In this document: piece by piece, positions 8,502 to 12,067 of the stretch
Layout: each line of letters begins with the position of its first letter
How positions within the stretch are numbered: position 1 is the first letter of the stretch
Assembly: GCA_947453695.1 (NCBI GenBank)
Contig: CANGHW010000004.1
Span: forward strand, 44,290-108,289
Direction: 5' to 3'
Source: Opitutia bacterium
GTDB lineage: Bacteria > Verrucomicrobiota > Verrucomicrobiia > Opitutales > Opitutaceae
Length of the DNA stretch: 64,000 nt
Notes under the pieces: model-generated
Database searches by the model: none
Seen by the model: the letters and a program-made list of their open reading frames with translations, nothing else
What the model was told of the DNA's origin: nothing
Translations under genes and position numbers: made by a program

Positions 8502-10670
8502 ATGCCCAAGAAACCCACTGCGAAAAACTCCGACCAACCCGAGCTGCCACTCGACAGCGCTGCGGCGCCCAAGGGTGAGACGCCCGTGCCCGCGGCGCCC
8601 GCACCGGCTGCGCCCGGTGGAGCCGAAGGCACGCCGCCCGCCGCACCCGCCGTCGATGCGGCGGCGCTCGCGGTGCCGGCCGATGGTCCCGCGGTCTTTA
8701 CGCCCGGCCCCCGCCGCGGCGGTGCGACCGTGCAGGAGGAAGACTCGCCGCTCGCGAAAAACTATCGCGGTTGGTTTCTCGAATACGCCAGCTACGTGAT
8801 CCTCGATCGCGCCGTCCCGCACATCGACGACGGCTTGAAGCCCGTGCAGCGCCGCATTCTCCATACGCTCTGGGACATGGACGACGGGCGTTTCCACAAG
8901 GTGGCCAATGTCGTCGGCCGCTCGATGTCGCTCCACCCGCACGGCGATGCCTCGATCGGCGCGGCGCTCGTCGCGATCGGCCAGCGCGCCTTCCTCATCG
9001 AGCCGCAGGGCAACTACGGCAACCTCCTCACCGGTGACGAAGCGGCGGCGCCGCGTTACATCGAGGCGCGTCTCACGAATTTCGCGAAGGATGTGCTCTT
9101 CAATCCGAAGACCACGGAATGGCAGTTGAGCTACGACGGCCGCGCGAAGGAGCCCGTCACGTTGCCCGCGAAGTTCCCCATCGTGCTCCTCGAGGGTGCT
9201 GAGGGCATCGCGGTCGGTCTCGCGACGAAGATTCTCCCGCACAATTTCAACGATCTCTGCCGGGCGGCGATCAATCACCTCCAGGGAAAAACCTTCCGCA
9301 TCTATCCCGATTTCGCCACGGGCGGCATTGCGGATTTCTCGGAATACAATGACGGCGAACGCGGCGGCAAAGTGAAGGTCCGCGCCAAGATCGAGCAGCG
9401 TTCAAAGTATCTCCTCGCGATCACCGAGCTGCCGTTTGGCTCGACGACGGAGACGCTCATCGAGTCGATCCTCTCCGCCAACGCGAAGGGCAAGATCAAG
9501 ATCAAGCACGTCGACGACAACACGGCCGACTCGGTCGAGATCCTCGTCCACCTCCCGCAAGGCGCGGAGCCGGACAAGGTGATCCAGCAGCTCTACGTTT
9601 TCACGAACTGCCAGATGCAGCTCTCGCCCGCCGCGTGCGTGATCGAGAACGACAAGCCGCAGTTCCTCGGCGTGAAGGAAATCCTCCGCCGCAGCGTCGA
9701 GCGCACGCGCGAACTCCTGAAGAAGGAACTAGAGATCAAGCTCGGCGAACTCGAGCAGCAGTGGCACTGGGATTCGCTCGAGCGCATTTTCATCGAGGAG
9801 CGCATCTACCGGAACATCGAGAAGTCGAAGACCTGGGAGAGCGTGCTTGAGGAAATCCGCGCGGGGTTGAAGCCGTTCATCAAGGACCTCCGTCGCGAGG
9901 TCACTGACGAGGACATCACCCGCCTCACCGAGATCCGCATCAAGCGCATCTCCGCCTACAACCGTTTCCAAGCCGACGAAGCCCTCAAGAAAATCGAAGA
10001 GGGGATGAAGGAGACGAAGGCACACCTGAAGAATCTCACCGGCTACACGATCGCGTGGTTCGAGATGCTCCAGGAAAAATATGGCAAGGGGCACAAGCGC
10101 CGCACGAGCTACGACGAGATCGAGCAGATCGACGCCTCGGCGGTCGTGTCGGCCAACCAGCGCCTCTACGTCAACAAAGACGACGGCTTCATCGGTCTAA
10201 ACTGGCGTCAGCACGAATACGTGCAGGACTGCACGATCCTCGACAGCGTGCTCACGATCATGCGCGACGGCTCGCTCAAGGTCGCGAAGGTGGCCGACAA
10301 GGTCTTCATGGGCCGCGACATCATCCACGTCGCGATCTTCCCGAAGGATGGCGACACGGCGTTCTACTCCATGGTCTACCAGGACAAGGAGAGCGGCAAA
10401 GCCTTCGCGAAGCGCTTCCAGATCGGCGGCCTCTCGCGCGACAAGCTCTACCCGCTCGTGAAGAACGAGGGCTCGAAGATCGTGTGGCTGCACGTCGCGA
10501 AGACGGAGAAGGAAATGCCCCGGCAGGTGAAGGTCTTCATCGACGGCCGCAGCGGTGCACGCGTGCGCGAAGTCGACTTCGACCTCGGCACGATTCCGGT
10601 GAGCACGCGTAGCGCCATCGGCGTCACCGTCTCGAAGTGGCCGGTGAAGGACGTGAAGCCCGTGGAGTGA
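8502..10670 (+). CDS. DNA topoisomerase IV / gyrase subunit A
   Basis: SYVILDRAVPHIDDGLKPVQRRILHTLWDMDDGRFHKVANVVGRSMSLHPHGDASIGAALVAIGQ ... RYIEARLTNFAKDVLFN; start at MPKKPTAKNS (8502) rather than 8121. Confidence 0.93.
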   Translation: MPKKPTAKNSDQPELPLDSAAAPKGETPVPAAPAPAAPGGAEGTPPAAPAVDAAALAVPADGPAVFTPGPRRGGATVQEEDSPLAKNYRGWFLEYASYVILDRAVPHIDDGLKPVQRRILHTLWDMDDGRFHKVANVVGRSMSLHPHGDASIGAALVAIGQRAFLIEPQGNYGNLLTGDEAAAPRYIEARLTNFAKDVLFNPKTTEWQLSYDGRAKEPVTLPAKFPIVLLEGAEGIAVGLATKILPHNFNDLCRAAINHLQGKTFRIYPDFATGGIADFSEYNDGERGGKVKVRAKIEQRSKYLLAITELPFGSTTETLIESILSANAKGKIKIKHVDDNTADSVEILVHLPQGAEPDKVIQQLYVFTNCQMQLSPAACVIENDKPQFLGVKEILRRSVERTRELLKKELEIKLGELEQQWHWDSLERIFIEERIYRNIEKSKTWESVLEEIRAGLKPFIKDLRREVTDEDITRLTEIRIKRISAYNRFQADEALKKIEEGMKETKAHLKNLTGYTIAWFEMLQEKYGKGHKRRTSYDEIEQIDASAVVSANQRLYVNKDDGFIGLNWRQHEYVQDCTILDSVLTIMRDGSLKVAKVADKVFMGRDIIHVAIFPKDGDTAFYSMVYQDKESGKAFAKRFQIGGLSRDKLYPLVKNEGSKIVWLHVAKTEKEMPRQVKVFIDGRSGARVREVDFDLGTIPVSTRSAIGVTVSKWPVKDVKPVE

Positions 10671-10889
10671 GTCGACTAGGTTGACGCTTCCTTTGGCGGT
10701 GCGCCGCGTCGAGCAACGGGCTCGCGCGGCCTGGCGACCGGCACGAGGCGTGAAGCGCGTGCTGCGTTCAGCGAAGCCGGCACGCACGGGCGCCCTACCC
10801 ATCGCGCGCAAGCGGGCAACTGACGACGGTGTTAACTGGTGGCCGTGAAGCTTGGGTGGGGCTGCAACTGGCCAGGCGGCTGACCTCTC

Positions 10890-11372
10890 GGGGACGGTTC
10901 AGACGGCAAACGGAGTATCTCGGACGCTAAACGGAGGGTCGAAGACACTGGAAGGACGGTCTCAGACACAAAACGGTCACTCTCAGGGACAAAAAGGAGC
11001 GTCTTAGACACAAAACGGACCTTCTCCGACGTAAAACGGACGCCTTTAGACACAGAACGGAGTGTCTCAGACGCAAAACGGAGTGCCTCAGACGTAAAAC
11101 GGCGTGCCACAGATGCTAACCTGTGTCATAAAGATGTCGGCGGGAGTCATAAAGATGCTGGCAGGACCGTAAAAGATGCCCGCAGGGGTCATAAAGACAG
11201 CGGCAAGACCGCAAAAGATGTCCGCCGGAGCGATAAAGATGCCCGCAGGACCGCTAAGGCTGGCGGCAAGAGGGGCCCAGACCCTGACCAGAGCGCCTCA
11301 GACGGCGGCAAGAGCGACCCAGACCACGAAAAGCGCGACTATGGAGGCGGCAGGCCCGACTCGGGCGCGGCT
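10890..11372 (+). repeat. Degenerate 21-bp tandem array, 23 units in constant register (two sub-families)
   Basis: Units from 10890+21k; first ~11 like cggagtgtctcagacgcaaaa, next ~6 like aggaccgtaaaagatgcccgc, last ~6 more diverged; no indels. Confidence 0.9.
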
Positions 11373-11566
11373 CTGACCGCGCAAGGCGGGGGCGAGCGCG
11401 CGTTTCGGATCCGGCCGCACTTGGGTGACGCCGGACGCGCGGGAAATCTGGCGTGGCCTGAGGGATGGGCGAATTCGCGATTGACGGTGCGACGGGGTTT
11501 TCTTGTTTCCCGGGGACCCCGACGCCACCCCGCGTCTTACCCCCCACTTCCACCTGAGGCTTCGTC

Positions 11567-12067
11567 ATGAGCAGCTTTCGCATCCGCCCGCAATTCACCC
11601 ACACCGTGCAGGCGAACCTGGACGCCACGCGGGAACAAATTCTCCAAGCCCTCGCACAGAAGGCGCCAGGGTTCGAGGTGCGGGCGTTTCCCGAATTCAT
11701 CGCGATTCATTTTGCCGAGGGCGAGCGGCGCTACTGGTCGCCGCGGCTCTTTCTCAATCTCGGCACCACTGAGGCCGGCGTGACGCGTATCGAGGGCATT
11801 TACGGACCGGAAATGGAAATCTGGTCAGTCTTCGTCTATGGCTACCTCGCGACCGGACTGCTCGGGACTTTTGCCGGTATTTTGGGTTTCGCCCAGCGTT
11901 CGGTCGGGTCGGAGCCGTGGGGCTTGTGGGTCTTGGCGGCGATGCTCGTGGTCGCCCTGCTGCTCTTCGTCGGCGGGCAGATCGGAGAAAAACGGGGCGC
12001 GTGGCAGACTTCGGAGTTACATCGCGCCTACGAGGCCGCGGTGGGGCGTCCGACGGAATTTCACTGA
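11567..12067 (+). CDS. Hypothetical membrane protein
   Basis: 166 aa, one or two hydrophobic segments (VYGYLATGLLGTFAGILGF, GLWVLAAMLVVALLLFVGG). Confidence 0.75.
   Translation: MSSFRIRPQFTHTVQANLDATREQILQALAQKAPGFEVRAFPEFIAIHFAEGERRYWSPRLFLNLGTTEAGVTRIEGIYGPEMEIWSVFVYGYLATGLLGTFAGILGFAQRSVGSEPWGLWVLAAMLVVALLLFVGGQIGEKRGAWQTSELHRAYEAAVGRPTEFH

Follow-up and report, generated by a model that had tools for sequence, protein, structure and literature searches.

A non-coding array of 21-bp units with a possible helical register, one of a dispersed class in an Opitutia bacterium

Does the DNA between a topoisomerase gene and a membrane-protein gene of an Opitutia bacterium (Opitutaceae) hide a further protein gene, or is it a repeat that matters as DNA? 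The window analysed here is a 64,000-nucleotide stretch of contig CANGHW010000004.1, in which a preliminary description had drawn attention to degenerate repeat units at 10890-11372 that can be read as a series of heptapeptides. That description leaned towards selection on protein in the frame starting at 10884, and it named a decayed gene, a gene with an unusual start, and a repeat at the level of DNA or RNA as the options. The array is not a hidden protein gene; it is a non-coding repeat, and our results count against both gene options as well as a structured RNA and show that it acts as a DNA-level repeat. We put at about one in two the reading that it is a non-coding intergenic minisatellite whose 21-bp register is kept by way of its match to about two helical turns.

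The array does consist of 23 consecutive 21-bp units in a single register (Table 1). Identity between positions is 0.62 at a lag of 21, 0.63 at 42 and 0.57 at 63; for lags of 3 to 62 apart from these it stays within 0.18-0.31. The periodicity is far above chance expectation. A cyclic-profile alignment in which indels were allowed placed the array at 10898-11368 with zero indels, bearing out the constant register claimed beforehand. Tandem Repeats Finder (TRF) likewise detects the array, but only piecemeal, in three segments (10908-11113, 11125-11254 and 11262-11352). Three related blocks follow one another in a chain, with some positions kept between them, such as a GAC/GAT core, and others exchanged.

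Table 1. Features of the array locus, in window coordinates
Feature	Positions	Strand	Description	Basis
Upstream gene	8517-10670	+	DNA gyrase/topoisomerase IV subunit A type; start position approximate	PF00521, E 3.9e-105
Curvature maximum	10851-11150		300-bp window, predicted curvature 1.361, rank 1 of 30,110 in 1.52 Mb	dinucleotide wedge model
Whole array	10890-11372		23 degenerate 21-bp units, indel-free, non-coding	lag-21 identity, profile alignment, TRF
Block A	10890-11120	+	11 units, consensus CGGAGnGTCTCAGACACAAAA read on the + strand	unit listing, PWM
Block B	11121-11267	+	7 units, consensus AGGAGCGATAAAGATGnCGGC; A-to-B order also in the array of contig C25	unit listing, PWM
Block C	11268-11372	+	5 degenerate units, consensus AAGAGCGACTCAGACGnCGnC	unit listing, PWM
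ATTGACGGT block	11480-11509	+	upstream of the 11567 gene; similar stretch at a like place in G007	by eye
Downstream gene	11567-12067	+	putative membrane protein, 166 aa, without Pfam family, ATGAGC start	G007 orthologue, 70% identity

The heptapeptide frame has properties that invite a coding interpretation. It is open for 228 codons, and plain column shuffles of the array are rarely so free of stops (P=0.004). Asp is retained at the fifth heptad position, described as nearly always Asp, in 19 of 23 units, through both GAC and GAT. The preliminary description is also right about the heptads, about the in-frame TGA (10881-10883) and GTG (10845), and about a frame that stays open to 11570 and meets the ATGA at 11567. 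However, a Markov null that preserves linkage between adjacent columns yielded one or more open frames in 40% of trials (P=0.40), so the lack of stops is unremarkable. With a codon log-likelihood of -24.6, the frame has non-coding usage; no start codon precedes the array in this frame, the earliest lying after it (from 11421 on), and a Pfam search with the frame gave no match.

Comparison with the one homologous array found, which lies on contig C25 of the same genome (78% identity over 233 bp), points the same way. The two arrays differ by 51 substitutions and no indel. These substitutions fall 20:18:13 on codon positions 1, 2 and 3, without a third-position excess, and pN/pS is 0.80 in the heptapeptide frame as against 0.85 and 0.78 in the remaining + frames; the lowest value among the six frames, 0.49, belongs to a stop-rich reverse frame. 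Selection on protein thus finds no support in the frame-by-frame comparison that had been proposed to detect it. No frame is open across the sister array L031, and profile alignment revealed 1-bp register shifts in four other sister arrays (L035, L042, L045 and L112). Together with arrays of 22 bp in a second genome, a length that cannot hold a reading frame, these shifts come close to refuting the coding claim by the test of indels not divisible by three. We therefore regard a heptapeptide-repeat protein gene, or a decayed one, with a non-canonical start or readthrough, as very improbable, and consider it very likely that the array class as a whole is non-coding. More generally, 21-bp arrays give long open frames by arithmetic, and heptapeptide ORFs of this kind need more evidence before they are annotated as proteins.

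The ATGA overlap with the 11567 gene is present as described, but it is not a sign of coding. In a genome of the same genus, G007, the topoisomerase gene and the orthologue of the 11567 gene are adjacent and the array is absent, the intergenic spacer measuring about 283 bp as against about 897 bp at the window locus. Because this array-less G007 gene likewise starts with GTCATGAGCAGC, the TGA is a piece of the Met-Ser start (ATG-AGC) of the gene itself. The heptapeptide frame continues past the array through the block at 11480-11509 and simply traverses the spacer ahead of the 11567 gene. That block is a possible promoter region; a consensus promoter scan found nothing.

The window array is not confined to one locus and belongs to a genome-wide class. 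We scanned 1.52 Mb of its own genome for periods of 9-63 bp using a detector that gives less weight to low-complexity coding sequence; the source assembly is fragmented (356 contigs, 93% complete, 2.7% contamination). Fourteen period-21 arrays were found. With the window left out, there are 13 in 1.46 Mb, equivalent to about 57 in 6.38 Mb, implying roughly 60 such intergenic arrays in the genome by extrapolation from the 1.52-Mb sample. The spectrum had 16 detections at 21 bp (the 14 loci) and 13 each at its multiples, 42 and 63 bp, single detections at 22, 54 and 57 bp, and none at any other period, which shows 21 bp to be almost the only period of the class. Gene calls, made with a simple gene finder written for the present analysis, were absent at the midpoints of 12 of the 14 arrays and weak at the other two (L244 and L251, log-likelihoods 13.5 and 10.3); we judged these two calls spurious, and hence none of the arrays to lie inside a convincing gene. 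No gene orientation was clearly preferred around the arrays (7 tandem, 3 divergent, 1 convergent).

There are small families within the class (the window array and C25; L039 and C236; L008 and L112). By comparison with column-permuted controls, 12 of 136 pairs of consensuses were similar at P<=0.05, where about 7 are expected, and the consensuses are mostly unrelated to one another. The arrays at L008:1171-1632 and L112:14533-15141, on separate contigs, have a ATGGCCTT core in common in opposite orientations. Dyad symmetry was significant in L109 alone among the own-genome arrays. At L109:14424-14843 several units are near-perfect palindromes in which both arms change in step (GGATTTACAAATCC, GGACGCGCGCGTCC).

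Searches beyond this genome found no counterpart of the array. A DNA search of 252 genomes of the family and 385 of the class, which covered the related Opitutaceae that the preliminary description had proposed to search, and a translated search of 57 relatives, returned homologous arrays in the own genome only. Phage and plasmid records held no homologous array, and one degenerate pattern had no match in IMG/VR. Samples of same-genus genomes (about 0.65 Mb) gave a single detector hit, L070 in G008, which reads as coiled-coil coding sequence and was rejected, leaving no genuine array. Two further candidates were set aside in the same manner, the repeat at L132 5960-6750 as coiled-coil coding sequence and L088 as coding low complexity.

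Within the class, the register is kept while the bases vary. Over about 5.9 kb of array sequence, cyclic-profile alignment found five 1-bp register shifts, and adjacent units within arrays differ at 21-49% of sites, with 2,480 differences over 331 units, the two counts being drawn from overlapping but non-identical sets of arrays. Single-base register shifts are thereby shown to be very rare across the class. Change rates are heterogeneous among columns in every array (P from 0.017 to 3e-18), some columns being near-fixed and others near-random. The array substitutions have a ts/tv of 0.68 and are near saturation; neighbouring columns co-vary, an effect that fades within a few bases. Most 21-bp arrays have only slight sub-periodicity of 10-11 bp, a point against the helical reading. 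The retention of a period near 21 bp against indels, despite base variation, is as expected of a helically phased DNA element.

Predicted DNA curvature is extreme at some of these arrays. In a dinucleotide wedge model applied to 30,110 windows over the 1.52 Mb, the top four curved loci are all at 21-bp arrays; of the 31 most curved windows, 22 belong to arrays, with 0.3 expected. Column-permuted arrays of the same period served as controls. Three models put the window array above them in curvature at P=0.01-0.02, and they give Fisher P values of 0.001-0.003 for the arrays taken jointly. Individually, curvature exceeds these controls significantly in the window array, C25, L109 and L251, the last being the only significant one among the later-found arrays (four, plus L104), and it is unremarkable in L009, L031, L042, L045, L111, L112b, L244, L250 and L254. 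A weak 21-bp array below the threshold of the scan, L104:4232-4700, adjoins a region with many A- and T-runs and ranks second in the sample for curvature. About half of the 21-bp arrays are not curved, nor are the tested 22-bp arrays of the second genome in the wedge model; therefore, curvature can be at most part of the story.

The second genome came from a survey of 80 loci of named Verrucomicrobiota (1.27 Mb), one of which, L132 from Opitutus sp. isolate 26_gen (Opitutaceae), has a 22-bp array. In this isolate (G272/G196) there were 45 significant 22-bp matches at about 40 places, with 40 of 321 candidates scored, and the arrays form a private family with about 40 or more dispersed members (L132, L219-L238). 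The 20 that we inspected in G272 have in common a dyad-symmetric consensus, TGCGGACnnGGTCGnGnCAAGG, whose half-period is 11 bp, and show only 4 indels in 177 units. They sit between called genes, with overlaps of no more than 44 bp at some ends, and 19 of the 20 have at least one gene 3' end facing them. None of the other 251 family genomes searched contains the TGCGGACnnGGTCGnGnCAAGG array. Additional short dispersed repeats occur in the flanks of these arrays (L219-L237). The 21-bp and 22-bp sets resemble each other as dispersed, degenerate intergenic arrays with few indels and a period of about two helical turns. They differ in that the 22-bp arrays have one common consensus, an 11-bp half-period and a dyad, are shorter and uncurved, and lie mostly near gene 3' ends. 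The two sets are independent in sequence and close in period.

The exact 21-bp spacing, despite mostly differing sequences, suggests maintenance at the DNA level. We propose that 21-22 bp, being two turns of the helix, would hold the register, and that the conserved skeleton of each unit would face one side of the DNA. The units may be sites for a phased nucleoid DNA-binding or bending protein, and arrays with an A/T patch, the window array included, would also act as strongly curved DNA. That selection acts on the helical phase of the arrays seems to us to have somewhat less than an even chance. The main rival is that these are neutral or self-propagating minisatellites: a quirk of replication or recombination in this lineage duplicates DNA in 21-bp steps, unequal exchange then spreads the units and alters blocks of a few bases, and the period reflects mechanism and not use. 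We consider this rival a serious one, with perhaps a minority chance of being correct. It fits the privacy of the tested array families to the own genome and their mostly unrelated sequences, the co-variation of neighbouring columns, whose short range of a few bases is what exchange of small tracts would leave, and the absence of flank, orientation and RNA signals. However, very few register shifts have occurred although variable columns are near saturation, near-fixed columns inside the units are unexpected from simple neutral drift, and the arrays of a second genome have almost the same period, 22 bp, but another consensus.

Two other explanations carry far less weight. A transcribed array of structured or processed RNA could be suspected from the short inverted repeat GTCTnAGAC in block A units and from the dyad symmetry of L109 and of the 22-bp consensus, yet the folding energies of the array do not beat those of shuffled sequences (z 0.40 and 0.08 for the two strands), an Rfam search of 10600-11700 was empty up to E=1, and the other own-genome arrays have no significant dyad signal; we think it highly unlikely. 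There is equally little probability in a minisatellite borne by a miniature transposable element (MITE) like BrickBuilt of P. gingivalis (PMC4596501), which the arrays recall in being imperfect 21-23 bp repeats dispersed between genes, and which would suit the longer spacer at the window locus than in G007. The 14 own-genome arrays have no leader or tail in common, their terminal inverted repeats do not exceed 7 bp, and their consensuses are mostly unrelated; comparison of their flanks gave one divergent match of 296 bp (L021-L031) and two of less than 30 bp. Helically phased minisatellites remain our preferred account, the best reading being that the class is lineage-specific. Taken further, about 60 intergenic DNA scaffolds with a conserved spacing of exactly two helical turns per unit and largely free sequence might serve as platforms for a putative nucleoid protein, with a 22-bp analogue in a relative, a suggestion that we regard as tentative and rather doubtful. 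Mostly unrelated arrays with one exact period allow a clean test of whether spacing alone is selectable in bacterial intergenic DNA.

As far as we know, large numbers of long degenerate satellites are rare in bacterial genomes, and our literature search found no directly relevant description of arrays in Verrucomicrobia or Opitutaceae. The REP/BIME elements of enterobacteria are, like the own-genome arrays, many dispersed intergenic repeats, for which nucleoid or gyrase-binding roles have been proposed. REP units are palindromic hairpins, whereas neither the window array nor, L109 excepted, any other array tested is significantly palindromic, and the window array folds no better than shuffles. 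In architecture, the nearest published object is BrickBuilt of Porphyromonas gingivalis, which is built of imperfect 23-nt direct repeats with 1 to 22.8 copies per element and is always intergenic, at 19 dispersed loci, and confined to one species and a close relative (PMC4596501). It has a single consensus, a leader and a tail with IS5-like inverted ends, and indels of up to 6% within elements (PMC4596501). Dispersed, imperfect intergenic tandem repeats of 20-25 bp are equally what the 14 arrays in 1.52 Mb of our genome represent. In contrast to BrickBuilt, these arrays have mostly differing consensuses, unrelated flanks and very rare register shifts.
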